Assembly: GCA_025716815.1 (NCBI GenBank)
Contig: JAIXMN010000070.1
Span: 1 to 36,328, forward strand
Reading direction: 5' to 3'
DNA: 36,328 nucleotides
DNA from: Dichotomocladium elegans
Taxonomy: Eukaryota > Mucoromycota > Mucoromycetes > Mucorales > Lichtheimiaceae
Part shown: positions 3,484 to 29,562 of the stretch, piece by piece
Layout of the letters: each line of letters starts with the position of its first letter
Numbering within the stretch: position 1 is the stretch's first letter
Position numbers and translations under genes: made by a program
The notes under the pieces: model-generated
What the model saw: only the letters and a program-made list of their open reading frames with translations
What the model was told of the DNA's origin: nothing
The model's database searches: none

Positions 3484-6400
3484 TTATAGCCGTCTTCTTT
3501 GGCTTCTCCTTGGTGGAGGATTGTGATCGGCATTGTCGGATCGGGATCGTTTCTTGCGGGGTGAACTGTCCTTTTTAGGCGATAGCGTATTGGAAGGAAC
3601 TGCATCAGCCTTTGATTCATCTTTTCCTAGTCGGTGCCAGTATTCGATGATAAAGCCAGGATCGGTGAACTTATCGGGTGTTAGCCATTGGTCGTCTTCA
3701 GCGCCATAGCCTTTCCATTGTACTAAGTATTGTCGTTTTCCTGGTTGTCCTTTGTGCGCAACTATAGCTTGTACTTCGTATAATTCGTCTTGAGGGATAA
3801 CTTCGTCTTGGTTAATAAGTTTCATCTCAGAGGGCGAATAGTCTCTAGGCATTAAAGCTCCTGTTTCATCTTGCAGCACGTAGGATCCTCCTTGTGTCTT
3901 GCGCAGTACTGTGTAAGGTCCTTCAAAAATGGGGGCCAGTTTGCTTCTTCGGTTCTGGACTCGCACCATCACGTGGCTCCGTTCCGGAAAATCAATCAAA
4001 TGATATTTTTGGTCGAACTTTTTCTTTTGTTTACCGCCGTGTTCTTCCGTTCTTTGTTTCAAGGCAGGAAAGACAACGTCATGCATATACGCGGCACGTT
4101 CCATAAGTTCTTGGTGTGTCGACGCTCTGTTCTCAACGGCACCATTACGTCGATAGTCCTTCATCTCATTAATTCGTCGAGCGAACATTAGTGAGAATGG
4201 CGAAGAACCTAACCTCTCGGAGATATGGCTATTGATTTCCAGTTGTGTGCTGGGAACGTAGAAGTCCCAGTCTTTACCTGCGCCTTCAATTTTCTTGCGG
4301 ATGACACTCAGAGTCGTTTGTACCCAACGTTCGGCAATCCCATTAGCGCGCGGGTGGTACGGTGTAGTAAGTCGATGGTCGATTCCTAGGCTGTCAATAA
4401 ATTTCTTCATCTTGAAGTTCTTGAATTCGCTTCCATTGTCTGATTGTATGATCTTAGGTAAACCGAAATCGCAGAATACAGATTTGAAGACTTCAACGAT
4501 AGTATCAGCTGACTTGTCTGGTAATGCTCGCAGTATACAAAAGCGTGTGCATACATCGACAAAGACGATGATATAATTGTTGCCTTTGTTCGAAGTGCGG
4601 TGAAAATTGATCAAGTCAACTGCCCAGTGATCGCCTGGTAAGTAAGCATAAATTGGTCTCAAGGGATTGAAGCCTCGTTTGCCAATATTGTAGCGTTGAC
4701 ATTGAACACACGATTTGACATACTCTACGGCGTCTTGGAATAAATTCGTCCAGTGGATACCATCGGCATGTAATGATCGTACAATGTGTTCCGCTCCTTC
4801 GTGACCACCTGTCAAGTGTGCTTTCTCTAGCAAGGCAGGACGTTCCGTGTCTGGTGGACACATTGTATCTTGTGGGGACTCATATGCTTTGACCAGGAAT
4901 ACTCGTTTGTTGGGCGTGTTTTTCTTTGCCGATCGAATTATGGCTGCATTACCCCCCTCCAGCTGTTCGTCAGGGGCGAACAAGCGCGAAAGGTTATCTG
5001 GCAGCACATTCTCAATACCAGGCAAGTGTACAACGCGGAAATTGTAGTCGAGCAAAGTGTCTAACCAATTGATCATCATCGGATTAGCAATCTTCTGGGT
5101 GTGCAAGTAAGTAAGAGCCTTGTGGTCCGTATACAGAGTAAAAGGATTTCCCCATAAGTACTGGTGAAATTTCTGGAGTGCATAGATGATGGCTAGCAAC
5201 TCTCGCTTCGTCGTGGAATAATTGCGTTCGGACTTGCTTAAAGAGCGAGCCATAAACGATACATACTGCTTCTGGCCATCTTTCATCTGGAAGAGGACGG
5301 CACCAATCCCATAGTTCGAAGCGTCGGTAGCCACATAGAACGGTAATGAGAGATCTGGGTATCGCAAGAGGGTACATTCAGCTAACAGAGCTTTCAGCTT
5401 TTTAAAGCATTTGTTATGCTCGTCAGTCCAGAGTTGATTCAGGGATCCAGCGGAACGTAACGCATCGAGTGGCGCACTGATCTCGGAAACCTTTGGAATA
5501 TGGTCGCGGAAATAATTGATAATACCCATAAAACGCATTACATCCTTGCCCGTCCGTGGTATAGGCCACTGTAGGACATTGGTAAGTTTTCGTTCATCAG
5601 GGGTAATACCACTCTGCGAGATACAGAATCCAAGTAAATAAACCGATCGTTGTGCAAAATGGCATTTCGCGGGGTTGAGGAGCAGGTTGACATCAGTCAG
5701 CGCTTGGATAGCAAGCTGAACATGACGGGTGTGTTCGGCCATCGTTCGAGAATGGACCACAATATCGTCGACGAAGGTTTGTACAAATGGCATATCTTTG
5801 TAAATGGATGACATCACTCTTTGGAACTTGGAAGATATCGGCTTCAAACCGAATGGACAACCTTGGAACATGTACTGGATTCCATTATGAGTGAATGTGG
5901 TCTTGTGCTGGTCTGCTTCATTGATCCGGAAACGATGAAATGCGCTCTTGAGATCTAATGTTGTGAATACAGCAGAACCACCCAAAGACGAAAAAATCTC
6001 CTTAATCAATGGCAAAGGGTATCGATCGTCAGGAATATACTTATTGATGTGGCGTGGATCAAGACATGGACGCTTTCCAGTCTTGTTACCATACTCATCC
6101 TTTTTGTCTGCCAAGGTGAGAGGACTGTTCCAGTTGGAATTCACAGCAGCTTTGACAATAATACCATCCGCCAGCCAACTTTTGACAGCATCGTCAACGA
6201 TGGGACGCATGGAATAAGGTAATGGATATTGTCTCTGATACGCGGATACACCTTCTGGAGTGTCGATGTAGATGACTGATTCGGGTACGGTGCAAAATGC
6301 ATTCTTCGGGATATTCGCATTGGCCTTTATATAGAGCTCTAACGCCTGTTTGAAAGCAATATATTCAGCAGGTGTACCAGCAGGAGAGTCGTTCGGCTCG

Positions 6401-8197
6401 GCCTTTTCTTCTTGTGGCACGACATTTTCATCCCTGCTTTCATCGGTGTGATCGTCATCATCCCATCTTGTCGCAACGCCTGTCAAAGCGATACCAAGTC
6501 TTGGTAGTAAGTCCAATCCTATTATGACATCAGTGTCATCTTCGAGGTCCATGACTTCAAATGCATGCTTGATAATGCGCTGATTGTAGCGTATAATGAG
6601 AGGTTCGGTGATACCCATACGTGGTAAACGATCGTTCTTTCCCGCATATGAAATAAATCCAGAAGCTTTTTCTATAACCCAATTGTTTTTCAAACAAATT
6701 CTTTTATTGACAACTGAAATCTCTGCTCCGGTGTCCAGCAGACCCAAGAGACGCTTATTCTGGATAAGGATAGGTGAAGTCAGTCGCAAAGAATTGTTTT
6801 GGGTATGCAACGTATATAAACGTATTTGCTTACCGGAGGAATGCTTTGCCAGCTCTAGACTGGCATCAGCGTCGAGATCCATGTCCTCGAGGACGTCGTC
6901 GGCGGGGTGACGCTTGTCGGCCTCCTGCCGAGAGGGGCGCGAACTGGTATTGGTGGTGGTGGTATTGGCGGCAACGGAGCAGTCTTGACGCGCGAGGCGG
7001 TTGAGCCGCTTCTGCTCACGTTGTGCCTTCTTGGCCTTGACGTACTCGTCGCAACGGTGGTCGGGATCCCAGTCTTGTTTGCAGTAAATGCAGCGGCGTT
7101 CTTTAAGTGCACGCTGCAGTGCGGTCGGCTCCTTCTTCGGCTTCGGTGCAGGCTTCATTGAAGGCTTGGGTGAAGGCCTGGGCGAAGACCGGCGCGTGTG
7201 GTGCTCAGAACGTTCAAGACGTTCATGGCGCCAATTGCGCGGCTCGCGGCGGGAGTGACGGACGTGTGGGGCAGATTCCCACTGGTGCCGGTTCACAGCA
7301 GGGTGTTCACGTTGTACACGTGAAACACTATGTCGAGTGCGGTTCTCAGTCGCCTGGATCAGCACCCCCGTCCGAATGACCTCTTCGGTATTTTGGGGGT
7401 TGCGAGGGCCATGCTGACCATGCCACGCAACTCGGACATCCTGCTGGAAGTCAGGTTCCAGCGAGAAAAGGAAACGCAACGCCATGTTCTCGTCGTCCTT
7501 GAGACCGGCTTGCTTGATCGCCTCCTGGTACTCGTCTCCGTAATCCAGGATGGACACACCGCGGGGCATCATCATCGAGAAAACTTTCGTGGCGGCGGAC
7601 ATCGAACGGCTGGTACCCTCGAATCGTTCGGCGAAAACTTCACGTACCTGGGACCAGTTGTACCCCCTGTTTGCGACATAGGAATCGAACCAGTTGGCCA
7701 GGTGAGTCGGCATGGCAAGCGCCAACCAACGCTGCCAGTCGCGATCGACCTCCACCTCTCCAGCTTCTAGGATGAGCTGGAAGCGGCGAAGGAATTCCTC
7801 CACGGAGCTGAACGCCTTCTTCGTCGTGTCGGTCATTGTGATACCAGGCACCTGGAACAAGGGGATGTCGCCGATGTTGACACGGCCACCCCTCGAGGGA
7901 ACGGACCGGATGCTGCTTTCGTCCTCAGTCGGAGCTGAGGAAAGAGAGAAGCTCGGTTCCACCGAGGATGCAGCTGGCTTTGTTGGTTCAAGACCAGCAT
8001 CAGCCGCAGACTGCAGCGCGACAAAGACCGTCTTCTGATCGTTCAACAGACGACAAGTGAGTTCGATCTTCCTCGAAATCTCGGCGAAAGCGTCGGCGTC
8101 GTCGTTCTCGAGTGCTTGTGCTTGCCGCAAGCACAACTCCTTCAAATCGTCGCCTTTCTTCGCCATGAGCTGGGCGACGGCCTCCACAGCACTAGTT

Positions 8198-12350: not shown

Positions 12351-13093
12351 TGACACGTCAGTACAGTATATATATAAAGAAAGCTCCAGGTACAGTTTAC
12401 TTGAAAGGTAAACCAAAACAAAAGGGGTACATAAAATGAAAAGAAGGGTAATGAGATATACAGAAATTATCCGCTCGTAGAATCGGGTTCTTTGATTGCG
12501 TCGACCGACTCCAAAAATCGATACACTCAAAGAAGAGGTTTCCAAAAGGTATGTGTAATCAAACAAAATAAAGACTGATTCCTCTACTTCAATACAGAGT
12601 GAATCTCAAAAGGGGTTCTGAAGGTGGGTGAAATGAATATTCCAATAAAAGTTCTTCCTCTTGGTGAAAGAGAAGACCTCGTTCTAGCTTCTCTCCTCGC
12701 TGTCTAAATACTCGTTGCTTCTAAGCTAAAAGAATGATTTTGACTAAATAAATTGGATAATAAAGAGTGGTCATAGAGGGCATATAAAACATAGGCTTAA
12801 GCTAAACGTTAACGGAGAAGGTTCCAATGAAAATATACTAAGCACCATGATAAAGAAGGGACTAAAATGGCGCGCGGAATGATAGATAGTGTGAGCATAA
12901 AATGATGCTAATGATTTAGCGAAATAACTGATCAACGTCCGAAAAGGAAAGGAAAGGAAGTCAGAAACGAGAAGAATTTGATCAGACCGGAAAAAGGGTC
13001 ACGTGATGAAGGTCGAGGGGTCGTTTCATAGCGAACGTTCCATTCTTGAAAACGGAAAGTGGTCGGCCAGAAGAGAATCGCCACACCGTGTCA
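12351..13093 (-). repeat. 5' LTR of Gyp-1 (743 bp)
   Basis: The edges form a perfect 7-bp inverted repeat, TGACACG at 12351 and CGTGTCA ending at 13093, with TG...CA termini. A primer site and gag follow on the minus strand. There is no second copy in the window for direct comparison, so the borders rest on the termini and on 13093 abutting the LINE target duplication. The LTR is non-coding; long AT tracts and a TATATATATA stretch near its inner end are visible. Its outer edge lies 9 bp before the start of the tRNA-Ser sequence at 13103. Confidence 0.75.
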
Positions 13094-13117
13094 GAAGTGT
13101 GTGGAGAGATGGCCGAG
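13094..13117 (+). repeat. Left target-site duplication of tLINE-a (partial tRNA-Ser copy)
   Basis: These 24 bases match 18607-18630 at 20 positions; five bases in the middle (GAGAG versus ACAAC) hold the differences. The last nine, ATGGCCGAG, are tRNA-Ser nucleotides 7-15. This is the stump of the original tRNA-Ser 5' end and its upstream flank. Confidence 0.8.
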
Positions 13118-13479
13118 ATGAAACTTGGTTTATTTGTGAGGCATAAAGGACCGTGCTCAATGGAGCTTATGTCCGCCCCGAGGTGCAGGAAGAGAAGGCT
13201 ATGAAAAACCCCATGGGGGAGCAGGGGAAAAAGGTAGAGAGACTATAGGCGGCTGGACAATGACAATGTGGACTCGGATCGGGCGCGGCATAACCGGAAG
13301 GCTAAGCGGGTTAGTAGCGGAGATAAATATATGAATCTTTTTTTTTTTTTCTTTTGTGGCATACGCCTTTTGCTGTTTTTTTCTTCTTCTTTCCGTCGTC
13401 TTTTTTTTTGAATAATAATATGGTGTAAAATATAAGAGCTAAACTAATGGATAAGTATACAACGGGCACACGCGACGCC
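13118..13479 (-). other. 3' UTR of tLINE-a
   Basis: No gene. The outer ~215 bp are nearly identical to the tLINE-b 3' UTR, which suggests an RNA signal for reverse transcriptase binding; long A/T homopolymers (13337-13410) differ between copies. AATAAA (sense strand, 13129-13134) lies about 11 nt before the 3' end, yet no poly(A) was inserted. Confidence 0.7.
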
Positions 13480-16400
13480 TCAGAAATCGAACTCAAGGAG
13501 AACCATCTCTGCAGCAGCCGGTGGCAGGGGAAGAGGTGCATGAGGCAAAGGCAAAGGCGGGGGTGTGAGCCAAGCCAGGAGCTGGAATCCATTGTCGCTA
13601 TCATCGTCCGTGTGTGACTCGTGTGGGTGGCACACACGATCGATGTCGGAGAGGACTTGGAGCAGCGCGGGCCAACGAGTGTGCCAGAAAAGAAGGTGGG
13701 CAGCAGAACGAGGGCGACGACGAGGGAGGCGGTTGAGGAGATGGTCGATGGGGTTGGGGGAGGCATCCATCGGCACATCGAGGCGGGAGGCGACAGAAAG
13801 GCAATCGATGAGGTGATGACGGCTGGTGCGTGTTTCACCACATTGACAAGCAATAGGTTTCCCAGGCAACCAGCCCATGCGCCAGCGCACTAGGCGACTG
13901 CGCTCACGAGACGTCATTGGCAGGAAAAAGATGGGATCCACACCAAGGTCGGGGCGAGCAGCCGAGAGAAGGACACCGGAGTGAGGGTCGGCTCGGCGAT
14001 CATGCAGGCCATCGAGGCGGAAGCGCTTGATGGTCGCCTTCAAAGCCTTGCTATCAGCGTTTTCCGGGGGCGGAGGGAGCTGGTTCCAGATGGCGTTCGA
14101 GGTGGTGAGTCGGCGCCACAGGTGGCGGCGATCATGCATGAGGCGAGGGCGGAGGACAGTGAGCAATGCCTTTTGTGGCAAGAAATGAGCGCGGATTAGG
14201 AACTTTGCGCCGAGGATCGCGACGCGTTCCGCCATCGTAGGCAGCCCAGCCATGTGTCGGAACACAATGATGGAAGACGTTTTATGGCCCCCAAAGAGGC
14301 GACGGAGGCATTGGTCTTGGCCGCGTTCAAGGATCTGCAGGTCTTTCTTGAGAAATGGAGTAATGGCAAGGCCATACTCCATTTTCGGTCTGATGAACTG
14401 CTGGTAGAGGCGGACAGAAAGGAGACGAGGAAACCCAGAAGGGCTACAGCCAATCGAACTAAGTGTGCGCATGGCGGCGACGGCAGAGCTCACGTTGTGC
14501 TGGACCAGCATGGTGGGGTCGATCTGGCAACGAGAATTGAACGGCACGCCAAGGTACCGAAACGACGGAGCAACGGGGATATCTTGGCCATAGAGTTGGA
14601 GGGGCGGGCCACTGCCAGGGTTGAGGACAACGCATTTGGCAGGGTTCCAACGGTACCCAAGGGAGTGGGAGTGTTCTTCTGCACGAGCCAATAGGAGAGG
14701 CATGGTGTCGGCATCAGCAATGAGGGCGACATCATCGGCATACAGCAGGCAATTGATCCACTGTCCACCAACCAACCGGGAAGCCGGCCGAGGAGCCACA
14801 AAGTCAGAGTCCGAGTCCGAGTCTATATCTAAAAGTGCGCGGAGATGAGAAGGTAGGGAGTTAATATAGAGCGAATATAAGTGGGGGGAGAGGATTGAGC
14901 CCTGCAAAACACCTGTGGGAGGGCAGAATTGCGTAGAGCGAGCGCCGGAAAGGAGAACTTCGATTGATACATCGTCAAAAAGACTCTGTAATAAGCCGAG
15001 CAGGGCAGGAGGCGCCTGTGGCTCGAGGGCGCGCCAGATGACGGCCCGGTCGACAGTGTCGTAAGCACTCTTGATGTCCAGGAAGACTAGCACTGGGAGA
15101 CGACCTGTGTAGGCGCGATGGCGAAGGACAAGCTCATGCAGACATAGCGCTTGATCCAGGGCGCTGCGTTGGGGTCTGAACCCACCCTGGGCTATGTCTA
15201 ATGGCAGTGACGCAGCGTGGAGCACATCACGCAGGCAGATTTCCATGACCTTTCGCAAGACCGAAGTCAAGCTAATCGGCCGGAAATTGCCTGGATCCGT
15301 GGGCGAGCCTTTCTTGTAAATCGGAACCACCTGGGCAACTCGCCATGCGGCAGGGGTAGACGACCAGCGCCAACACAACTTAAAGAGGGCGGTGAGGGCG
15401 GGGACTAGGAGACCAGAGATGGGTGTCAACATCTCGGCACGCAGATGGTCAACGCCAGGCGCCTTCCGGCGCGCGACGACTTCCATTGCGTCCTTCACGG
15501 ATGCCTCGTCAAATGGGCACGAATCATCCACCGAATGTGGACCAGGCGGTCGAGGGGGCGGGGCAGCACGGACACGAGGGAGATAGTCTCCAGCATACAC
15601 TGTCGTGAGATGCTGGGCCATCCGGTTCGCGGCAACAGTAGGGCCAGCAGGGTCGGTGAATGTCGGGTGATGGGTGCGACGTTGGCGGATGCGTTTTATG
15701 GAGGCAGTTGTGTTGGAGAACTCGTCGCTAGCCAGTTTGGTGCAGAATTCACGCCATGTTTGCCGGCGCCGTCGTTGTAGCAAGGAACGAAACTGTGAGG
15801 CAGCCTCAGCGTGTCGACCATGCCAGTAGAGGCGGTGAACACCAATCGCTTGCCGGCGGCGGCGGTGACAGAGCTCACGTTCTTGAAACGCGGCTTCAAG
15901 TTGATCGGTCCAAAACCAGTCCTTGATCGTGTGGCGGTGGGAGCGTCGCCCGACAGAGTCGTCGAGAGCCTGGTGAATCGCTCCAGTAAGCGATTCAGCA
16001 AGAGTATCGAGGTCGGGTTGCACCTCATCATCGGCCAGAGCAGCAGCAATGCGCTCGTGGACTGGCGAAATATGGTCAGCGAATCGGTCCTGATATTGAT
16101 GGCAAGGGTCGGGGTCGGCCAGTTTGCTCAGACGCCAAAGAAGACGAGGGTGTGCGATGCGGTTGGGTGGCTGTGCAAGTTGGAACGAGAGGTGAACAGG
16201 TCGATGATCAGAGCCGAGGTCTAAATCATGGTCAATATGGAGCTGCGGCTCGAGCAGCTCATCGGTACTACAGAAAAGGTCAATGATGCTGGCTTCGTCT
16301 TGGTCTACACGGTGTGCAGCGTAAGTTGGCTGTCCGAAAGCAAGGCGAGAGTTCCAGCAGATGATGCCCTGCTCACTAAACCAGTCGGCAAGGAGAGCAC

Positions 16401-16872
16401 CACGAGCATTGGTGCGAGAGTCACCCAGGAATCGGGCGGATCGTCCATTAAAGTCGCCGCAGATAATTGTGTTGGTGGTACTATGATGAGCATTGAGGGG
16501 GAGGGAGGAGAGGATATCTAAAGCTGCGGAAGTGGAAAGGGAATGGGATGGGGGAAGGTACAGGCAATGGATGAGGGTATCAGCTATTTGACAGGAAAGG
16601 ACGTGAGGGGAGGAAGAGGGGAGGACATGAATAGGATATGGGCAGTCGGGGTGGACAAGCAGAGCTATGCCCATCCGACCGCGATGTGAGTTAGGGACAG
16701 GTAATGCATATGTGTGATATTGATCCCATGCTGTTGGATAGCGATGGGGAGAGAGGAGCCATGTTTCGGTGATAAAAATGAGCGTAGAATTAGAAAACTT
16801 ACCTATAATAGGCGAGATGGCCTGCTTGGCAAGACCATTCGCATTCCAAAGAGTGATAGTGATATCACACAT
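13480..16872 (-). CDS. tLINE-a ORF2: APE endonuclease-reverse transcriptase (1130 aa)
   Basis: The intact frame starts with an apurinic-type endonuclease: TLWNANGL (Asn), FITETW (Glu), GDFNGRSARFLGDSR (about 140) and GSDHRPVHL (about 220). A reverse transcriptase follows (VVPIYKKGSPTDPGNFRPI; FLDIKSAYDTVDR near 595; GVLQGSILSP; catalytic YADD near 710). The C terminus carries a CxC...H...C cysteine motif (CQCGETRTSRHHLIDC, about 1010). By family knowledge the endonuclease nicks the target and the RT copies element RNA from the nick. Both copies enter at one tRNA-Ser position, so this endonuclease is the likely source of specificity. ATG overlaps the ORF1 stop as TAATG. It is the only complete LINE enzyme in the window. 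Confidence 0.95.
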   Translation of the reverse strand: MCDITITLWNANGLAKQAISPIIGKFSNSTLIFITETWLLSPHRYPTAWDQYHTYALPVPNSHRGRMGIALLVHPDCPYPIHVLPSSSPHVLSCQIADTLIHCLYLPPSHSLSTSAALDILSSLPLNAHHSTTNTIICGDFNGRSARFLGDSRTNARGALLADWFSEQGIICWNSRLAFGQPTYAAHRVDQDEASIIDLFCSTDELLEPQLHIDHDLDLGSDHRPVHLSFQLAQPPNRIAHPRLLWRLSKLADPDPCHQYQDRFADHISPVHERIAAALADDEVQPDLDTLAESLTGAIHQALDDSVGRRSHRHTIKDWFWTDQLEAAFQERELCHRRRRQAIGVHRLYWHGRHAEAASQFRSLLQRRRRQTWREFCTKLASDEFSNTTASIKRIRQRRTHHPTFTDPAGPTVAANRMAQHLTTVYAGDYLPRVRAAPPPRPPGPHSVDDSCPFDEASVKDAMEVVARRKAPGVDHLRAEMLTPISGLLVPALTALFKLCWRWSSTPAAWRVAQVVPIYKKGSPTDPGNFRPISLTSVLRKVMEICLRDVLHAASLPLDIAQGGFRPQRSALDQALCLHELVLRHRAYTGRLPVLVFLDIKSAYDTVDRAVIWRALEPQAPPALLGLLQSLFDDVSIEVLLSGARSTQFCPPTGVLQGSILSPHLYSLYINSLPSHLRALLDIDSDSDSDFVAPRPASRLVGGQWINCLLYADDVALIADADTMPLLLARAEEHSHSLGYRWNPAKCVVLNPGSGPPLQLYGQDIPVAPSFRYLGVPFNSRCQIDPTMLVQHNVSSAVAAMRTLSSIGCSPSGFPRLLSVRLYQQFIRPKMEYGLAITPFLKKDLQILERGQDQCLRRLFGGHKTSSIIVFRHMAGLPTMAERVAILGAKFLIRAHFLPQKALLTVLRPRLMHDRRHLWRRLTTSNAIWNQLPPPPENADSKALKATIKRFRLDGLHDRRADPHSGVLLSAARPDLGVDPIFFLPMTSRERSRLVRWRMGWLPGKPIACQCGETRTSRHHLIDCLSVASRLDVPMDASPNPIDHLLNRLPRRRPRSAAHLLFWHTRWPALLQVLSDIDRVCHPHESHTDDDSDNGFQLLAWLTPPPLPLPHAPLPLPPAAAEMVLLEFDF

Positions 16873-16874
16873 TA
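16870..16874 (-). promoter_or_regulatory. TAATG stop-start junction, tLINE-a
   Basis: The ORF1 stop TAA and ORF2 start ATG share one A. The same pentamer joins the ORFs in tLINE-b. In the SART1 non-LTR element UAAUG is an established translational coupling signal; the same role here is inference. Confidence 0.75.
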
Positions 16875-18606
16875 TTGATCAATATGTGTGGGAGCAGATC
16901 CAGAGGGAGAAGGTGTGTGTGATGGTGATTCCATCTCCTCGTCGTCGATTTCGTCAGCGACTGGGGGCTGCTGCATGCCGGAAAGGGCGAGGATGGCGTC
17001 GTGTTCAGCGGTGGTTGGTGTGCGAGCTGGTCGAGGAGGGCAGACACTGTGGAACTCCTCGAGGGAGAGCATCCCAGCGCGGAAGAAATGGCGAGCAACA
17101 GAAAACTTGACGGGGGCACGGACGAAGGTAATCGCTTTCACGATACGGTCGTGGTAGAGCTCAGCACATTTCGCCTTGCGTTGATCGTCGGTCCAATCTT
17201 GGAATGCGGGATCCAAGAGCGTTGTGGGGTCGAGAGGGTCGAAGGTGGTAAGGGAGACACCCTTGCCGGCAAGCATGGTCGTAATCTCCGTAACGAAATC
17301 GTTGTGGACCAAGAGAGCAGCGACCTGGCGGGTGGGGAAGTGGATATCAAGCACCCGTCCATTATCCACATGCAGAGTTCGTAGAATTTGTCGCATGTTA
17401 GTGATGGTCATACGATGACGACAAGGGACGTATATAAACTGATATCCCTGGTTCTCAGGGACCGCAGTGAGGCGGCGGGCAGCTGCATTCACTGCTCGGT
17501 TGGATGTCGGCGGGTGCGGCGTTGGCGGGGTGCCCGTCGGGCAGCAGCAGCGTAGCTGCGAGCGCTCGTGGCTTGCGACTGGGTGGCATTGGGCGGGGCA
17601 TGTTGCGATGCATAAATGGATGCATCCCGCGTGGAGGGCGACGTCGTAGCAGGAGACGTGGCTGTTGCTGCTGATGGGGATGGTCCTGGGGAGCGGCTGC
17701 TGGCGCGGAGGGCTGCAATGGTAGCCTGGGAGTCCTTAAGAGCTTGTTCAAGGCTCTCAATGCGTTTGAGAAGCCGAGTGTTTTCAGCCGCAACTGTGGC
17801 GAGATCTGAGAGGCCCTTTTCAGCTGCTGTAAGGCGAGCAAGGATCTCCCGGATGCAGTCAGGCATATTTGGATCAGTATGTAGAAACATACCTGGAGGC
17901 AGCTCGGTGTCTATGGTAGTTGTGGTTGTCGGCTGCGCGGGTTCCTTGTGGGGTTTGGGATGGATCGTTTTGTCCCTGGGTGCCACGTGGTTTGCCACTG
18001 TAATTGCAGCAGTGACCTGGGTGTGCAAAAATTCCGAGTTGCATGATCTACAGTGGAACATTGGCGCGGGGGGCTCGTAGGCCGAGTTCGTTTTAGCAGA
18101 CATGTTTATCGATCCAATGTCTGCACAGGCCGAGTTGGGGCATACAATCGACGTTTTTGCACAGGAAAAGTCGAGGCGGAACTGGCGCAGGAAGGCAGGG
18201 GAGATTGCGGGCTTCGAATTGCCAGGGGCAGAACGTCGAGGGCCAGATGAGCTCAATTCCTTTTTTTGAGCACCCATCTCTGTAGTTGAATTGACGGGCG
18301 GGGTGATGGTAGACCGGATGTTAGAGATGCGGTTCTTTTTAAAGGTAGGGATGTAAGATGGGCGGTCTGGGGTGCGTGATTGGCGACGCTTGGTGCTAAT
18401 GATTGAGATGGGGGTTAGCAATGGAGATGGGGAGCTGGTCCGTTGGCCGATTTCGACGGGGATTTCGACGGGTGGGCCTTTAGTTAATGCAGGCGAGTGT
18501 TCCTGCGTGCTTTGTTGTGTGTTTTTTGTAGAAGGTTGTTGTATTTTGTAAGGGTAGAGGAAAACTTCTTTGTGTAACCAACCAGAAAAAGTATTGGAGA
18601 GCGAAA
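16872..18606 (-). pseudogene. tLINE-a ORF1 protein, frameshifted
   Basis: Two overlapping frames (about 17489-18560 and 16872-17492) together correspond to the ORF1 of tLINE-b. Aligning the copies shows one base missing in tLINE-a at about 17500-17530, so the first frame stops after RRTRRHPTEQ. Near 18560 tLINE-a has one extra base relative to tLINE-b, which moves the frame of its 5' end. The product would have a basic N terminus, a zinc-ribbon-like pair (CPNSAC...CRSC), a coiled coil and a C-terminal RNA-binding-like region. ORF1 proteins bind the element RNA. As it stands, this copy cannot make a complete one. Confidence 0.85.
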
Positions 18607-18630
18607 GAAGTGTGTGACAACATGGCCGAG
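18607..18630 (+). repeat. Right duplication of tLINE-a / left duplication of tLINE-b
   Basis: The 24 bases close tLINE-a; their last 15 (18616-18630, GACAACATGGCCGAG) are the first 15 bases of the tRNA-Ser gene and also form the left duplication of tLINE-b. The next base is the 3' end of tLINE-b. Confidence 0.9.
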
Positions 18631-18988
18631 ATGAAACTTGGTTTATTTGTGAGGCATAAAGGACCGTGCTCAATGGAGCTAATGTCCGCCCCGAGGTGCA
18701 GGAAGAGAAGCTATGAAAAACCCCATGGGGGAGCAGGGGAAAAAGGTAGAAAGACTATAGGCGGCTGGACAATGACAGTGTGGTCTCGGATCAGGCACGG
18801 CATAACCGGAAGGCTAAGCGGGTTAGTAGCGGAGATAAATATATATATTTTTTTTTTTTTTTGTGGCATTCGCCTTTTTTTTTTTTTTCTTCTTCTTCTT
18901 TTCCGTCTTCTTTTTTTCGAGTAATAATATGGGATAAATATATAAAGCTAAACTAAGGGATAAGTATACAACGGGCACACGCGACGCC
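18631..18988 (-). other. 3' UTR of tLINE-b
   Basis: No gene. It matches the tLINE-a 3' UTR closely apart from homopolymer lengths near 18845-18920, and ends with the same CCAAGTTTCAT preceded by AATAAA on the sense strand. Confidence 0.7.
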
Positions 18989-21900
18989 TCAGAAATCGAA
19001 CTCAAGGAGAACCATCTCTTCAGCAGCCGGTGGCAGGGGAAGAGGTGCATGAGGCAAAGGCAAAGGCGGGGGTGTGAGCCAAGCCAGGAGCTGGAATCCA
19101 TTGTCGCTATCATCGTCCGTGTGTGACTCGTGTGGGTGGCACACACGATCGATGTCGGAGAGGACTTGGAGCAGCGCAGGCCAACGAGTGTGCCAGAAAA
19201 GAAGGTGGGCAGCAGAACGAGGGCGACGGCGAGGGAGGCGGTTGAGGAGATGGTCGATGGGGTTGGGGGAGCATCCATCGGCACATCGAGGCGGGAGGCG
19301 ACAGAGAGGCAATCGATGAGGTGATGACGGCTGGTGCGTGTTTCACCGCATTGACAAGCAATGGTTTCCCAGGCAACCAGCCCATGCGCCAGCGCACCAG
19401 GCGGCTCCGGTCACGAGACGTCATCGGGAGGTAGAGATTGGGTCTATCCCAAGATCGGGGCGGGCGCCGAGAGAAGGACACCAGAGTGGGGATCGGCACG
19501 GCGATCCTGCAAACCATCTATACGGAATGTTTGATGCTGCCTTCAAAGTCTTGCTATCGTATCTTCTTTAGGCGAGGGGAGCTGCTTCCAATGGCATTCA
19601 CATCAGTGAGGCGGCGCCATATATGTCGGCGATCGTGGAGCAGACGGGGACGGAGAACAGACAACAATGCCTTCGGGGCAGAAATGTGCACGGAGGATGA
19701 ACTTTGCGCCGAGGATTTCAACGCGTTCCGCATGTAGGCAGCCCGCCATGTGCCTGAACACAATGGTGGAGGAGGTCCGTGCCCGCCAAAGAGGCGGCGA
19801 AGCATTGGTCCTGGCCACGTTCAAGAGCTGTAGGTCTTTTTTGAGGAAAGGGTATGGCAAGGCCATACTCCATTTTGGCCTAATAAATTGTTGATAGAGG
19901 CGGACCGAGAGGAAGCGGGAAATCCAGAAGGGCTGCAGCCATTGAATTAAGCGTACGCATGGCTGCACAGCAGAGCTCACTTGTGCTGGACCAGCATCGT
20001 GGGTCGATCTGGCAGCGAGAATTGAAGGGTACACCAAGATACCTGAAGGACGACGCAACTGGGATATCCTGGCCATAGAGTTGGAGAGATGGGCCACTGC
20101 CAGGGTTGAGAACAACGCATTTGGCAGGATTCCATCGGTAGCCGAAGGTATGTGAATGGTCTTCTGCGCGGACAGTAGGAGAGGCATGGCGTCGGGTCAG
20201 CAATGAGAGCGACATCATCGGCGTACAATAGGCAGTTAATCCATTGCCACCAACTAACCGGAAAGCCGGCCGAGGAGCCACAAAGTCAGAGTCCGAGTCC
20301 GAATCTATATCTAAAAGGGCGCGGAGATAAGAAGGCAGCGAGTTAATGTAGAGCGAGTAGAGATGGGGGAAAGAATTGAGCCCTGCAAAACACCTGTGGA
20401 AGGACGGAATTGGGAAGAGCGAGCGCCGGAAAGAAGGACCTCGATGGCCACATCGTCGAAAAGGCTTTGCAGAATGCCGAGAAGAGCAGGAGAGGCCTGT
20501 GGTTCAAGAGCACGCCATATGATAGCCCGATCAACGGTATCATAGGCACTTTTTATGTCTAAAAGACCAAGACCGGGAGGCGGCCGGTGTATGCACGATG
20601 GCGAAGGACAAGTTCGTGTAGACAGAGCGCTTGATCCAGGGCACTGCGACGGGGTCTAAACCCACCCTGGGCGATGTCTAATGGCGGCGACGCAGTGTGG
20701 AGCACATCACGCAGGCATATTTCCATAACCTTTCGCAGGACCGAAGTCAAGCTAATCGGCCGGAAATTGCCTGGATCCGTGGGCGAGCCTTTCTTGTATA
20801 TTGGGACCACCTGGGCAACTCGCCATGCGGCAGGTGTAGACGACCAGCGCCAGCACAACTGAAAAAGGCCAGTGAGGGCGGGGGCCAAGATATTCGAAAT
20901 GGGGAGCAACATCTCGGCACGCAGATGATCAACGCCAGGCGCCTTTCGTCGCGCCACGAGTTCCATTGCGGTCTTTACGGAGGCTTCATCGAATGGACAA
21001 GAATCATCCATTGGATGTGGGCCTTGGGGTCGAGGGGGCGGGGCTGCACGGACACGAGGGAGGTAGTCCCCAGCATACACTGTCGTCAGGTGTTGTAGCA
21101 TCCGGTTTGCGGCAACAGCCGGACCAGCAGGGTCGGTGAATGTTGGATGGTGGGTGCGACTTTGGCGGATGCGCTTTACAGAAGCGGTGGTGGTGGAAAA
21201 GTCATCGCTGGCCATCTTGTTACAGAATTCACGCCATGTTTGCCTGCGCCGGCGTTGCAACAAGGATCGAAACTGTGTGACAGCCTCGGCATGTCGGCCA
21301 TGCCAGTAGAGGCGATGAATACCGATCGCCTGGCGACGCCGACGGTGGCAGAGCTCGCGTTCTTGAAACGCAGCTTCGAGCTGATCGGTCCGAACCAGTC
21401 CTTAAGAAAGCGACGGTGGGAGCGTCGACCAACGGAGTCGTCCAGTGCCTGATGAATTGCCTCAGTAATCGATTCAGCAAGGGTATCCAGGTCGGGTTGC
21501 ACTTCGTCATCAGCCAAGGCAATGAGGATGTGTTCGTGGGTCGTCGAGATGTGGTCAGCAAATCGATCCTGGTATTGGCGGCGAGGGTCGGGGTCGGCCA
21601 ATTTGCTCAGACGCCAAAGAAGGCGGGGGTGGGCGATGCGGGTTGGTGGCTGTGCGATCTGGAACGAAAGGTGGACAGGGCGATGGTCAGAGCCGAGGTC
21701 TAAGTCCTGGTCAATATGGAGCTGCGGCTCGAGCAGCTCATCAATGCTACAAAAAAGGTCAATCACACTGGCTTCGTCTTGGTCTACCCGGTGTGAAACG
21801 TAAGTTGGCTGTCCAAAAGCAAGGCGGGCGTTCCAACAAATGATGCCTTGCTCGCCAAACCAGTCGGCAAGGAGGGCACCACGAGCATTGGTGCGAGAGT

Positions 21901-22350
21901 CACCCAGTAAACGAGCGGATCGTCCATTGAGGTCGCCACAGATGATCGTGTTGGCAATGCTATGGTGAGGATTGAGGGGGAGGGAGGAGAGGAGATCTAG
22001 GCGGTAGAATTGGAAAAGGAAGAAGATGGGGGGAGGTACAGGCAATGGATGAGGGTATCGGCTATTTGGCAGGAGAGGACGTGAGGTGAGGATGAAGGAA
22101 GGACATGAATAGCGTGTGGGCAGTCGGGGTGGACAAGCAGAGCTATGCCCATCTGACCGCGATGCGAATTGGGGACAGGTAGTGCATATGTGTGATGTTG
22201 ATCCCATGCTGTTAGATAGCGATGGGGAGAGAGGAGCCATGTTTCTGTAATAAAAAGGAGTGTAGAGTTAGGGAACTTACCTATAATAGGCGAGATGGCC
22301 TGCTTGGCGAGACCATTCGCATTCCAAAGAGTGATAGTGATATCACACAT
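18989..22350 (-). pseudogene. tLINE-b ORF2 endonuclease-RT, degraded
   Basis: The sequence parallels the intact ORF2 of tLINE-a from MCDITITLWNANGLAKQ (start at 22350) to the C terminus at 18989, but is broken into at least seven frame segments: endonuclease N part (21997-22350), endonuclease C part (about 21395-22010), RT N part (20559-21263, ending inside the catalytic LDIKSAYD block), short pieces carrying YADD near 20220, and the C-terminal Cys/His end (18989-19312). Most breaks are single-base losses against tLINE-a, dense between about 19.4 and 20.6 kb. In the endonuclease the GDFNG motif reads GDLNG. No functional protein can be made. Confidence 0.9.
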
Positions 22351-22352
22351 TA
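22348..22352 (-). promoter_or_regulatory. TAATG stop-start junction, tLINE-b
   Basis: The ORF1 stop and ORF2 start overlap by one base exactly as in tLINE-a. Confidence 0.75.
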
Positions 22353-24083
22353 TTGAACGAGATTGGTAGGTGCAGAGCTAGAAGGCGAGGGGTTGTAGGA
22401 TGCGGAATCCATTTCTTCATCGCGAACTTCACTATCAAGGGTGGAATGGTGCATGTCGGTTAGGGCGAGAATCGCATCCTGTTCGTCTTCGGTGGCTTGG
22501 CGCTTCAGTGGAGGGGGGCAGAACTCGTGGAACTCTGGAAGAGTGAGGATACCGTTGTGTAGAAAATACCGGGCGACCGAGAATTTCACTGGGGCGCGGA
22601 TGAAGGCGAGAGCCTTCAGCACGCGTTCATGGTAGAGTTCGGCGCATTTCGCCTTGCGTTGCTCTTCCGACCAGTCTTGGAAGGCAGGATCGAGAAGGGA
22701 TGATGGCGCAAGGGGGTCAAAAGAAGTCAGGGATACGCCTTTACCGGCAAGGAGAGATGTGAGCTCTTCGACAAAGTGATTGTGCACAAGGAGGGCTGCG
22801 ACCTGACGAGAGGGAAAATGGATATCGAGTACACGGCCATTATCCACTTTCAGGACCCGGAGGATTTGACGCATGTTTGTGATCGTCATTCGGTGTCGAC
22901 ATGGGACATACACGTATTGGTAGCCCTGGTTGTCCGGGATGGCGGTGAGGCGTCGCGCGGCTGCTTTAACAGCACGTTTGGATGGCGGTTGTTGGCGCTG
23001 GTGGCGAGGTGCTCGGCGAGCAGCTGCTGCGTAGCTGTTAGGACTCGTTTCCGGACTTCGGGCAGGATTTAGTGGGGCGTGTTGTGATGCATAGATGGAG
23101 ACATCGGCGGTAGGCTGCGCCACGGGCAGTGGCGCAGTTGTGGGCGCAGGTGGGGGACTGTTAGCACGAAGGGCTGCAATAGTGGCCTGTGAATCTGCAA
23201 GAGCTTGTTCCAGGCTCTCGATGCGCTTGAGGAGTCGAGTGTTCTCAGCTGCGACCGTGGCAAGGTTTGAAAGGCCCTTTTCAGCCGCCGTGAGGCGGGC
23301 AAGGATCTCACGGATACAATCCGGCATGTTAGGGTCGGTATGTAAGAACATACCTGGAGGCAACTCGGTGTCGTCGGGTTGGACTGTGTCCATGTTGGTG
23401 GGGATAGACATGGCAGTGGGCGTGGCGGCGGGTTGCACAGATTGCTTTAGGATTCTTTTAGCGGGTTTTTTGTTTTTTTCTTGTGTAGAGTGGTTGGCCA
23501 GAGTGATAGCAGCAGTGACCTGCGTGTGTATAAACTCAGAGCTGCATGATCCACAATGGAACATTGGTGCAGCTGGTTCATAGGCCGGGTTCGTTTTGGC
23601 AGACATATTGATCGTTCCGATGTCTGCGCAGGCCGAGTTGGGGCACACGATCGACGTTTTTGCGCTGGAGAAGTCAAGGCGGAGCTGCCGAATAAAGGCG
23701 GTGGAAATAGCGGGCTTTAAACTACCCGAGGCAGCCCGCTTCGAACCAGATGAGCCCAAATCCTTTTTCTGAGCACCCATTTCAGGGGTATTGATGGCAG
23801 GTTGAGCGATGGTGGACCTGATGCTAGAGATGCGGTTCTTTTTGAAGGTAGGGATGTGAGACGGGCGGTCTGGGATGTGGGATTGACGGCGTTTGGTGCT
23901 GATGGTCGAGATGGGAATTGGCAATTGAGATGCGGGACTGGTCAATCTGCCGATTTCGACGGGGATTTCGACGGTATGAGTGTTAGATAATGCAGGCAAC
24001 TGTTCCTGCGCTGTTTGTTGTGTGTTTTTGCTAGTAGGTTGTTGTATTTTAGAGGAAGAGAGAAAACTTCTTTGTGTAACCAA
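22350..24083 (-). CDS. tLINE-b ORF1: zinc-ribbon, coiled-coil RNA-binding-type protein (577 codons open)
   Basis: The open frame has a Ser/Thr/Pro-rich basic N terminus, a zinc-ribbon-like motif (CPNSAC near 148 with CGSCSSEF near 180), a heptad-like coiled coil (LARLTAAEKGL...ENTRLLKRIESLEQAL, about 255-310), a basic Ala/Arg linker, and a C-terminal region (GYQYVYVPCRHRMTITNMRQIL...VAALLVHNHFVEEL, about 385-460) that could be an RRM-like fold. I call it ORF1 from position, RNA-binding features and its TAATG junction to ORF2. There is no ATG at the open-frame start (TTG at 24083); the first internal Met is in EMGAQKK, about 125 codons in. Yet the 125 codons before it are alike in both copies (VEIPVEIG; IPTFKKNRIS), so they are probably translated from a non-AUG or upstream start. 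Confidence 0.85.
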   Translation of the reverse strand: MVTQRSFLSSSKIQQPTSKNTQQTAQEQLPALSNTHTVEIPVEIGRLTSPASQLPIPISTISTKRRQSHIPDRPSHIPTFKKNRISSIRSTIAQPAINTPEMGAQKKDLGSSGSKRAASGSLKPAISTAFIRQLRLDFSSAKTSIVCPNSACADIGTINMSAKTNPAYEPAAPMFHCGSCSSEFIHTQVTAAITLANHSTQEKNKKPAKRILKQSVQPAATPTAMSIPTNMDTVQPDDTELPPGMFLHTDPNMPDCIREILARLTAAEKGLSNLATVAAENTRLLKRIESLEQALADSQATIAALRANSPPPAPTTAPLPVAQPTADVSIYASQHAPLNPARSPETSPNSYAAAARRAPRHQRQQPPSKRAVKAAARRLTAIPDNQGYQYVYVPCRHRMTITNMRQILRVLKVDNGRVLDIHFPSRQVAALLVHNHFVEELTSLLAGKGVSLTSFDPLAPSSLLDPAFQDWSEEQRKAKCAELYHERVLKALAFIRAPVKFSVARYFLHNGILTLPEFHEFCPPPLKRQATEDEQDAILALTDMHHSTLDSEVRDEEMDSASYNPSPSSSAPTNLVQ

Positions 24084-24108
24084 CTAAAAAATGTGTTGGG
24101 AAGCGAAA

Positions 24109-24191
24109 GACAACATGGCCGAGTGGTCTAAGGCGTGAGACTAGAAATCTCATGGGCTCTGCCCGCGCAGGTTCAAATCCTGCTGTTGTCG
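24109..24191 (+). tRNA. tRNA-Ser (anticodon AGA), intact
   Basis: The 83 bases fold as a class II tRNA. The acceptor is GACAACA with TGTTGTC (7 perfect pairs) and discriminator G. The D arm is GCC/GGC. The anticodon stem is TGAGA/TCTCA with loop CTAGAAA (anticodon AGA). A long variable arm (TGGGCTCTGCCCGC) is followed by T arm GCAGG TTCAAAT CCTGC. The internal A box (TGGCCGAGTGG) and B box (GGTTCAAATCC) match the Pol III consensus and there is no intron. It reads UCU Ser codons. The first 15 bases double as the right target duplication of tLINE-b, so the gene was rebuilt rather than destroyed by LINE insertion. All DNA upstream of base 1 is LINE. Confidence 0.97.
24124..24134 (+). other. tRNA-Ser sequence just past the LINE nick site
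   Basis: The nick inferred from both LINE copies falls between 24123 and 24124, in the middle of the A box (TGGCCGAG^TGG). The right half of the A box is present only once in the window, here. Confidence 0.7.
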
Positions 24192-24224: not shown

Positions 24225-24601
24225 TGTCGTCATACAACGCTTCCTGACCGCTATGCTGTGACGCTTCTTTTACCGCGACATCTATTGCAGACCTGATTTG
24301 GCGGAGTTTCCCTTTTTAGTCTTGTCATACCATGACCATCGTTCGAACACGTAGTCGCTTCTCGTCAGCCCACGTAAACCTCAAACGTAGTCTAACTTCC
24401 GTCGAACACGTATTCATTCCTCATCATGCCACGTAGCCTTTTGTCTTGTAATCAGCATTACCACAATAGTTAGAGAACATATAAATATCCCCTTCCCTGG
24501 TAAACAATAAACATCATCATCCTCCCCGAGGTCTATCCTATATTATAATCGTCCCAAGCGCGTCACCACTGGCTACGGATATATCCGCCAAAAGGACGAC
24601 A
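24225..24601 (+). repeat. 5' LTR of Gyp-2
   Basis: 377 bp, TG...CA, with a TATA-like box (CATATAAATATCC near 24478) and AATAAA about 30 bp later. It matches 29173-29549 except one base. Confidence 0.95.
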
Positions 24602-24603
24602 AT

Positions 24604-28700: not shown

Positions 28701-29195
28701 GCTGAGGTCCCTTCGACTACCGAGACGACTGTATCCACGACACATCGGGTTCCCGAAGTTCGACAACTACAAGAAGCCCGTCAACTGGCCACGCGCCGTC
28801 TCAACGATAACGCTGCTAAGGACAAAGCCCGCTGGGATTCCCTGATTACCCCGCAAAAATTTAATGTTGGCGACCATGTTTTGATGCGGCATGAGAACAA
28901 GCTCAGTCTAGAGTATAACTGGAAAGGCCCATTCATCGTTACTGCCTGCAATTACGACACCAACATATACAAGATAAAAGACATGAACGGCCAAGTTTAC
29001 ACCTCGTGGGTTCATACTGACCGCCTCCGACCGATCCATGTTAACTCTTCTGTCTCCTCCGACCCCTGGTATGATCCTACTGCCGCTCGCGCAGCTGAAC
29101 GTCGCCACCTCCACGCAGCCGCCCAATTATCCTTGTTGTTCGAGGACGACCAACACTTTGGAGAGGGGGTATTGTCGTCATACAACGCTTCCTGA
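25656..29195 (+). CDS. Gyp-2 Pol: protease, RT, RNase H, integrase
   Basis: The frame is open upstream of the slip site; I give the part read after frameshifting. Domains: aspartic protease (VLIDSGATGSYVAP, about 92); reverse transcriptase (CVDYRAINRVTKRNTHPLPRI; SSIDLKSGYHQVRI; catalytic YLDD near 429); RNase H (IETDASDFGVGAVLLQE, about 580; HTDHMPLKYY); integrase HHCC (FHSSFGHAGNTTMYD...CPQCQL, about 786-825); integrase core D-D-E (WHLDFIGEL; LTDRGANF; NGKVERTN, about 850-950); and a GPY/F-type module (EYNWKGPFIV). There is no chromodomain. The last 23 nt of the gene lie in the 3' LTR. Every catalytic motif is present. Confidence 0.95.
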   Translation, partial: RPSAGGLKGALPRNQVYQQSLNVINTGTTDSTHKDSAKDAQIEISENQDQEPSELQCQLETDKQYLESLMSIKTTDLPMYSMTCANRSVEVLIDSGATGSYVAPHVASNLPTRRVPGRQVETAGGHIFDISTQVTLPLDAQGYKHTIDAYVLDTKFDIILGRDWLKMVNPLPDWDLDTWRINTEDNTFVLRPQHRREVPELAYLISDRQVQRWEQDRRVAEMSLCYVRPTRKEPFTPSNDKFASLITEFQDVFRDKLPGLPPDRDVEHVIDTGDAAPLSRPPFKMSPLELAELRKQLNELLDLRLIRPSVSSWGAPVLFVCKKNGEMRMCVDYRAINRVTKRNTHPLPRIDECLEQLGGAQYFSSIDLKSGYHQVRIREEDIPKTAFNTRYGSYEFLVLPFGLTNAPPTFQKLMNSVLKDYLDNFAMVYLDDILIYSKSADEHYNHVRMVLERLRSANLIANLKKCEFNKTTLEFVGFQVTARGILPSPNKVKAIQDWPQPTNVQEVRQFIGLASHYRRFIRNFAAIAAPMTDLTKGTGMKKREITWTSECQQAFEEIKARMCDAPLLAPPNTNLPFVIETDASDFGVGAVLLQEGPDGILHPLAFESKKLSAAERNYPAQERELLAILHALRTWRCFIEGRSYTVHTDHMPLKYYRTQSKPTPRLTRWIAELELYDPHIVYKPGKENHVPDLLSRRDGPACVTTENDLEPDYLYAVKSIQESDWPKFYALPEEQWPSIYRDLLTKHRNKFIARNGQVYRIIKSSKDTQEVRYVLFARRADLVQQFHSSFGHAGNTTMYDLFRKRWWWPDMRTDIQEWLASCPQCQLAANANRHVHHAPMKPLEVPPAFARWHLDFIGELPTTASGNRWILVAVDYMTNWTIARAVPDATGEAIANFIYEEIVMRFGCPTEILTDRGANFMSKVLSNYLGRIKVNHSFTSAFHPRTNGKVERTNSILKQMLRKYVHGHISQWDRYLEPALFACRIRKHRTTGFSPFFLVYGQEPILPGDPLHPFLAEVPSTTETTVSTTHRVPEVRQLQEARQLATRRLNDNAAKDKARWDSLITPQKFNVGDHVLMRHENKLSLEYNWKGPFIVTACNYDTNIYKIKDMNGQVYTSWVHTDRLRPIHVNSSVSSDPWYDPTAARAAERRHLHAAAQLSLLFEDDQHFGEGVLSSYNAS
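29160..29169 (+). promoter_or_regulatory. Polypurine tract of Gyp-2
   Basis: GGAGAGGGGG lies three bases before the 3' LTR and within the end of pol. Confidence 0.8.
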
Positions 29196-29549
29196 CCGCT
29201 ATGCTGTGACGCTTCTTTTACCGCGACATCTATTGCAGACCTGATTTGGCGGAGTTTCCCTTTTTAGTCTTGTCATACCATGACCATCGTTCGAACACGT
29301 AGTCGCTTCTCGTCAGCCCACGTAAACCTCAAATGTAGTCTAACTTCCGTCGAACACGTATTCATTCCTCATCATGCCACGTAGCCTTTTGTCTTGTAAT
29401 CAGCATTACCACAATAGTTAGAGAACATATAAATATCCCCTTCCCTGGTAAACAATAAACATCATCATCCTCCCCGAGGTCTATCCTATATTATAATCGT
29501 CCCAAGCGCGTCACCACTGGCTACGGATATATCCGCCAAAAGGACGACA
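29173..29549 (+). repeat. 3' LTR of Gyp-2
   Basis: 377 bp, identical to 24225-24601 except one T for C. It is followed by AGAC, the target duplication. Confidence 0.95.
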
Positions 29550-29562
29550 AGACTGTAGTGTG

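Follow-up and report, generated by a model that had tools for sequence, protein, structure and literature searches.

Long interspersed nuclear elements (LINEs) that target tRNA genes are already known, and they are the closest described counterparts of e1 and e2, two LINEs that lie against tRNA gene sequence in a 36,328-nucleotide stretch of the Dichotomocladium elegans genome (contig JAIXMN010000070.1, positions 1 to 36,328 of the forward strand; hereafter the window). Two papers on dictyostelids (PMC5911963, PMC5006619) place TRE5 44-54 bp upstream, NLTR-A 2-6 bp upstream, and TRE3 downstream of tRNA genes. TRE5/TRE3 and NLTR-A/NLTR-B resemble the present elements in being LINEs of the apurinic/apyrimidinic endonuclease (APE) type at tRNA genes, and TRE5 as portrayed there lies upstream in the opposite orientation, as does the family of e1 and e2 (family A). 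The dictyostelid elements, by the same accounts, lie outside the gene, whereas the D. elegans families A to E join their 3′ ends inside box A at one base (A14/R15 in tRNA numbering). Compared by description, they also differ in that the 5′ edge here abuts a tRNA solely through duplication of the tRNA head.

Other systems, as described, share single traits with these elements. NeSL-1_TV (Pro), LIN15_SM (Arg), and LIN25_SM (Glu), which fall near the NeSL clade, are likewise specific to tRNA genes, but each is named with one isotype (PMC4640811), against twelve for the clade described here. Dewa, a zebrafish LINE tied to tRNA-Leu repeats, targets the tRNA-Leu spacer and not the inside of the gene, while Dada DNA transposons do insert inside tRNA genes, the TAGCTC duplicated in Perkinsus belonging to box A (PMC3706591). 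Dada, however, uses a DDE transposase, duplicates 6-7 bp, and splits the gene; here a reverse transcriptase is used and 13-15 bp are duplicated from nucleotide 1. Grem-LINE1 of Mucor is, by description, a LINE of the Mucoromycotina with AP endonuclease and reverse transcriptase, but it is pericentric and carries a zf-RVT domain that is not among the Pfam matches of the second open reading frame (ORF2) of e1; the word tRNA is absent from the main text of that paper (PMC7377519). In the open-access main texts searched, no gene-sparing LINE of the APE type was found that inserts inside box A over many isotypes with restoration of the gene.

In the window, e1 and e2 are each about 5.5 kb long, lie on the minus strand, and join by their 3′ ends (at 13118 and 18631, respectively) the base right after GGCCGAG, as a preliminary description of the window had reported. 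The same junction recurs across the 39.4 Mb genome, of which the window contig represents 36 kb. A 27-base pattern of the family A 3′ end, allowing ≤3 mismatches, finds 10 matches, compared to 0 for the reversed pattern. CCGAG directly precedes all ten, and nine follow a head with ≤3 mismatches to that of tRNA-Ser or tRNA-Leu (8 Ser-type, 1 Leu). This placement of nine of ten 3′ ends behind the first 15 bases of Ser/Leu-type tRNAs very probably results from target-primed reverse transcription starting at a nick in box A. The unrelated sites or scattered 3′ junctions that the preliminary description had named as evidence against its proposal were searched for in this way, and the proposal stands unrefuted. 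Its restriction to tRNA-Ser, on the other hand, is not borne out, because the window family also occupies tRNA-Leu and sister families occupy ten other isotypes.

The sister families came from a genome search with the ORF2 protein, which gave at least 47 matches at 39-100% identity, scoring being limited to 41 of the 241 candidates. At 19 of these loci the 3′ edge was fetched, and 3′-end patterns were then made for four further families, with 14, 6, 8, and 12 matches and no reversed-pattern control. Families A to E together supply 53 junctions, comprising 50 pattern matches and three ORF2-found copies that the patterns missed. With ≤3 mismatches over 14 bases to a tRNA head observed in the genome as the criterion, 49 of the 53 lie at tRNA heads; of 200,000 positions drawn at random from the fetched sequence, in which tRNA loci are abundant, 219 do so. 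Family B accounts for 8/8 (Asn, Ile), family C for 7/8 (Ile, Lys, Tyr, Phe, Thr), family D for 12/12 (Glu, Asp), and family E for 13/15 (Val). Since many copies are in tandem or duplicated, the spread over eleven isotypes across A to E is a better measure than the count of 53. Family I, with 5/5 junctions at tRNA heads (Asn, Met, Lys), was found solely behind the 5′ ends of other LINEs; it is biased in this respect and was left out of the 53, as were families F, G, and H and the copy C59:148116, but it adds Met as the twelfth isotype. Viral contigs, searched for copies as a test of other hosts, contained none.

By tRNA numbering, the element joins the gene either between the invariant A14 and R15 or immediately past R15, a position at the centre of box A. 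In family B, position 15 tracks the element, being A in Ile although the Ile gene has G; in family I it is G in Asn and Lys(CTT) although these genes have A. The join in these two families is therefore placed after A14, while for families A, D, and E the two positions are indistinguishable. The junction proposed in the preliminary description is in this sense exact to the base, and it matches a specific first nick on the non-template strand of the tRNA gene. Each family is restricted to a few isotypes that have common bases just before the nick, namely GGCCGA in nearly all of family A, RGCTCA in family C, and GTGTA in family E; both family-E misses end in ATGTA.

These family-specific bases argue for direct sequence recognition by the putative endonuclease, although the motifs are too short and common to account for the precision of insertion, so that tethering to the RNA polymerase III (Pol III) complex or a more extended contact with the DNA is likely needed in addition. 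A tether alone, as proposed for TRE5-A and Ty3, with the exact base set by the geometry of the complex and not by recognition, is a less probable explanation and, on balance, an unlikely one. It would account for the use of one homologous position in twelve isotypes and for an off-head family-E copy (L107/L178, C1 near 1990900 and 1996499) that sits directly at the start of tRNA-Pro(AGG), at CATGTA; this copy argues for an added tether or longer contact. The confinement of each family to isotypes with its own pre-join bases, the shared ATGTA of both family-E misses, and a family-E copy (C55:212297) that has a 15-bp duplication and in whose fetched right flank no tRNA was found argue against a tether alone, though in the last case a tRNA-Ile lies approximately 0.36 kb to the left. 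Sequence recognition and a tether may act together.

The duplications that flank the elements have a narrow range of lengths. The left copy of the e2 duplication (18616..18630, plus strand) is a 15-bp tRNA-Ser head that abuts the e2 3′ end, and the right copy (24109..24123, plus strand), identified by flank comparison, forms nucleotides 1-15 of a whole tRNA-Ser(AGA) gene (24109..24191, plus strand; ARAGORN, and Rfam RF00005 at 61.6 bits) that adjoins the e2 5′ end. While this exact duplication stands as previously described, the 24-bp duplication proposed for e1 (13094-13117 / 18607-18630) is not confirmed: 4 of its 24 bases are mismatched, the 9 bases just before the join are the sole shared run, and it includes the probable element 5′ end, GAAGTGTGT. 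Clean 15-bp duplications at tRNA targets are present at e2, C34, C41, and C44; the family-E copy C55:212297 has its 15 bp outside a tRNA, the family-E copy beside tRNA-Pro has 13 bp, and two copies of family F and one of family G have 14, 13, and 14 bp, respectively. Three copies with LINE sequence on both sides are uninformative in this regard, namely B at C35 (50 shared bases), B at C55 (33), and C at C80 (16). Clean duplications thus measure 13-15 bp, and neither the variable 5′ edge (24 versus 15 bp) nor the loose second nick of the preliminary description is supported; what varies is the 5′ end of the element itself, which is missing its last 9 bases in e2 and is truncated in other copies. 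The stagger is approximately 14-15 bp irrespective of target. At tRNA targets the duplication begins at nucleotide 1 and ends at 14/15, so that insertion copies the head and the gene stays whole.

The most plausible reading of the 9-base GAAGTGTGT is the 5′ terminus of the element itself, since at C34 (L054), which has a non-LINE left flank, it occurs at the 5′ end only. Copies adjoining tRNA-Leu and tRNA-Ser likewise have it at their 5′ ends. At three further tRNA-Ser genes (L174-L176), GAAGTGTG follows apparent long terminal repeat (LTR) ends and the remaining LINE is absent; these are probably LINE stubs cut by LTR insertions, a flank common to Ser genes being an alternative.

Another idea is that the element carries the tRNA head as its own terminal sequence. 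Such a carried head would explain why most copies have one at their 3′ edge. However, the head varies with the adjoining gene (Ser/Ser, Phe/Phe, Thr/Thr) while the element ends are constant, and family E keeps the length of its duplication outside tRNA genes. This head-gene matching and the family-E duplication contradict the idea, which we reject as extremely improbable.

What the preliminary description missed is that the duplication covers the entire tRNA head, so that an unbroken tRNA gene stands beside the element. A 20-base pattern of the 5′ end shared by families B, C, and D has 53 genomic matches, a set distinct from the 53 junctions. A whole tRNA is next to 29 of these 5′ ends and a LINE-cut tRNA head is next to the other 24, with no third outcome. 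The whole genes are of the isotypes Asn, Asp, Glu, Ile, Lys, Met, Phe, Thr, and Tyr, and their ARAGORN starts are offset from the LINE 5′ end by 0 in 26 of 29 cases, by 1 in two, and by 6 in one. At six of the 30 listed tRNA loci (L025, L026, L027, L028, L046, and L048), a 5′ end of this type is directly upstream of the gene. Most such B/C/D ends have GTATATAAAG or a near form approximately 40-47 bp before the tRNA, while a similar TATA element was not seen in the ends of families A or E. As an idea prompted by its position, GTATATAAAG could be a LINE-supplied Pol III TATA box for the tRNA.

A constant 3′ join together with a short duplication of fixed length is the established outcome of target-primed reverse transcription in LINEs. 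The proposed sequence of events is as follows: (i) the ORF2 endonuclease would nick the non-template strand at A14/R15, (ii) synthesis of cDNA would be primed from the 3′ hydroxyl of the nick, (iii) a second nick would fall on the other strand at the -1/+1 border of the tRNA, approximately 14-15 bp upstream of the first, and (iv) with the entire tRNA head duplicated, the gene, including its internal promoter, would be rebuilt on the 5′ side and would be open to further insertion, yielding tandem arrays. If this is true, the transposon cuts an essential gene in its promoter and yet leaves the gene whole through the length of the duplication alone. Some LINEs recorded just upstream of tRNA genes might then really cut inside them.

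The assignment of e1 and e2 to the APE-type LINEs draws on ORF2. In e1, ORF2 is open and encodes 1130 amino acids (13480..16872, minus strand) with a reverse transcriptase (PF00078, E 7.9e-23; LINE-1 ORF2 protein, E 6.9e-11) and an APE-like endonuclease, for which the match to PF14529 (E 7.1e-15) passes its cut-off while that to PF03372 is under its own. The tRNA-specific NeSL/LIN elements carry a restriction-like endonuclease, in contrast to e1 ORF2, which has the APE-like domain and no other endonuclease family in its Pfam listing. Comparison of the window to itself reveals no pair of terminal repeats at the ends of e1 or e2. With a reverse transcriptase, an APE-like domain, no terminal repeats, and a 15-bp duplication, e1 and e2 have the predicted make-up of APE-type non-LTR retrotransposons. 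Named protein relatives are found in Mucor, Rhizopus, Phycomyces, Circinella, Gilbertella, and others, the five named genera being members of the Mucorales, so that a fungus of this order is the likely host.

Families F and G insert 13-14 nucleotides into a dispersed sequence that resembles ribozymes of the hepatitis delta virus (HDV) type. Copies of F are at L066, L067, L077, L094, L095, and L097, and those of G at L073, L074, and L096. At one G site, Rfam RF00094 aligns along its entire length, though its 34.3 bits (E 0.096) are under the gathering score of 50, and two F sites searched with Rfam had no RF00094 match. By eye, the F sites contain the pairings GGGATA/TATCCC and AGCAGCC/GGCTGCT with the loop TTCACGC, and the F-type motif has 48 genomic matches at ≤3 mismatches, a count made without a reversed-pattern control. 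The ORF2 piece at C34:205293-208316 ends 8 bases from an F-type motif (C34:208324-208347), which suggests a 5′-truncated copy at the same kind of target. The idea that the LINE itself carries a ribozyme at its 5′ end was considered and rejected: six loci searched with Rfam, of which three have F or G 5′ ends, yielded three weak matches that all fall short of a gathering score, and the HDV-like one overlaps the target sequence. Copies of family H (L075, L076, L092, and L093; C97) are arranged in tandem; their junctions, for example GTGTAGTATAG|ACAAA, resemble a tRNA head, for which no matching tRNA gene was found.

A reverse transcriptase tree of 49 rows, four of them with very long branches, groups E with F, G, and two unnamed relatives (97/86) and unites B, C, and D in one clade (100/100). 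The grouping of E with F and G implies that the ribozyme families are related to the tRNA families. It is moderately probable that the whole clade homes on a fixed spot at the beginning of genes for small structured RNAs (in tRNAs of twelve isotypes this is A14/R15, and in HDV-like ribozymes it lies 13-14 nucleotides in) with a stagger of 13-15 nucleotides, each insertion rebuilding the RNA gene along with a fresh target, so that elements stack. If this is true, endonucleases that use a homologous base in twelve isotypes and a ribozyme-like sequence in two families represent a natural series for the study of shifts in LINE specificity and a starting point for directing insertions to safe multicopy sites.

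Several observations weigh against these readings. Four of the 53 junctions miss a tRNA head (L009 of family A, L113 of family C, and L101 and L107 of family E). The L009 junction, GTCAGTTTGTCCGAG, matches no tRNA seen in the genome and may stem from a tRNA gene that is not among them; at L113 (L177), the guessed 5′ edge of the off-target copy was inspected and offered nothing informative. Several of the family A matches are loose, among them L004 with 3 mismatches and L012 with 2, and the 53 junctions are not independent, many copies being in tandem or duplicated. The copy C59:148116 is without such a 3′ end and has other sequence in its place, while the family A copies L053, L057, L059, and L061 are 5′-truncated or interrupted. 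When the endonuclease part alone was compared by sequence to solved structures, only antibody chains were returned (E ≥0.16). Finally, flanks are unequal at both e1 and C101, with 9 shared bases each.

The left flank of e1 is GGAGAGATGGCCGAG, the head of tRNA-Leu(AAG), and its right flank is GACAACATGGCCGAG, the head of tRNA-Ser. The unequal flanks at e1 and C101 point to recombination between copies or, for the short contig of e1, to mis-assembly. For e1 it is likely that the Leu/Ser pair stems from mis-assembly or recombination within the repeat and not from one insertion: the contig is just 36 kb long, e1 is repetitive over its 5.5 kb and has close copies at other loci, and its two heads fit two different genes. 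A similar head mismatch at C101, on a contig of 1.3 Mb, indicates that short contigs are not the sole cause.

Edges and comparison with e2 define e1 as a full-length LINE (13118..18615, minus strand) with its 5′ terminus at 18607..18615 (minus strand), which reads GAAGTGTGT on the plus strand. Its ORF1 region consists of two overlapping reading frames (16872..18112, minus strand). The 15-base tRNA-Leu(AAG) head that abuts its 3′ end (13103..13117, plus strand) has 0 mismatches to the Leu head, a whole tRNA-Leu being present in L062. Next to this head, GAAGTGTGT at 13094..13102 (minus strand) has 9 bases identical to the e1 5′ terminus and may be the leftover 5′ terminus of an older LINE copy, the remainder of which is absent. 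The second element, e2 (18631..24108, minus strand), has 81.7% DNA identity with e1 over its whole length, without the final 9 bases of the 5′ end present in other copies. Its ORF1-like frame of 577 amino acids (22350..24083, minus strand), taken from the reading-frame list, has no Pfam family passing the cut-off. Its ORF2 (18992..22033, minus strand) is broken and matched in two pieces, 18992-20371 and 21380-22033, the first with 6 internal stops.

A stretch with LTR-like ends (TGACACG...CGTGTCA) is set into the LINE 5′ terminus at 12351..13093 (minus strand); its LTR status is inferred from these ends and the adjoining gypsy-type pol frames. Elsewhere, at L058 (~6385-7120), L042, L043, and L045 and at the edges of L056 and L057, LTR-like elements likewise end either in a LINE 5′ terminus beside a tRNA head or no more than ~10 bp from a tRNA gene on its upstream side. 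In Rhizopus, Ty3-type LTR elements are often found together with tRNA genes, and LINEs account for 3.78% of the assembly (PMC2699053). The LTR-like ends near D. elegans tRNA genes would fit Ty3-like targeting, as expected. Just downstream of tRNA-Ser in the window, a 378-bp direct repeat with 99.7% identity (24225-24602 / 29173-29550) brackets gypsy-type frames.

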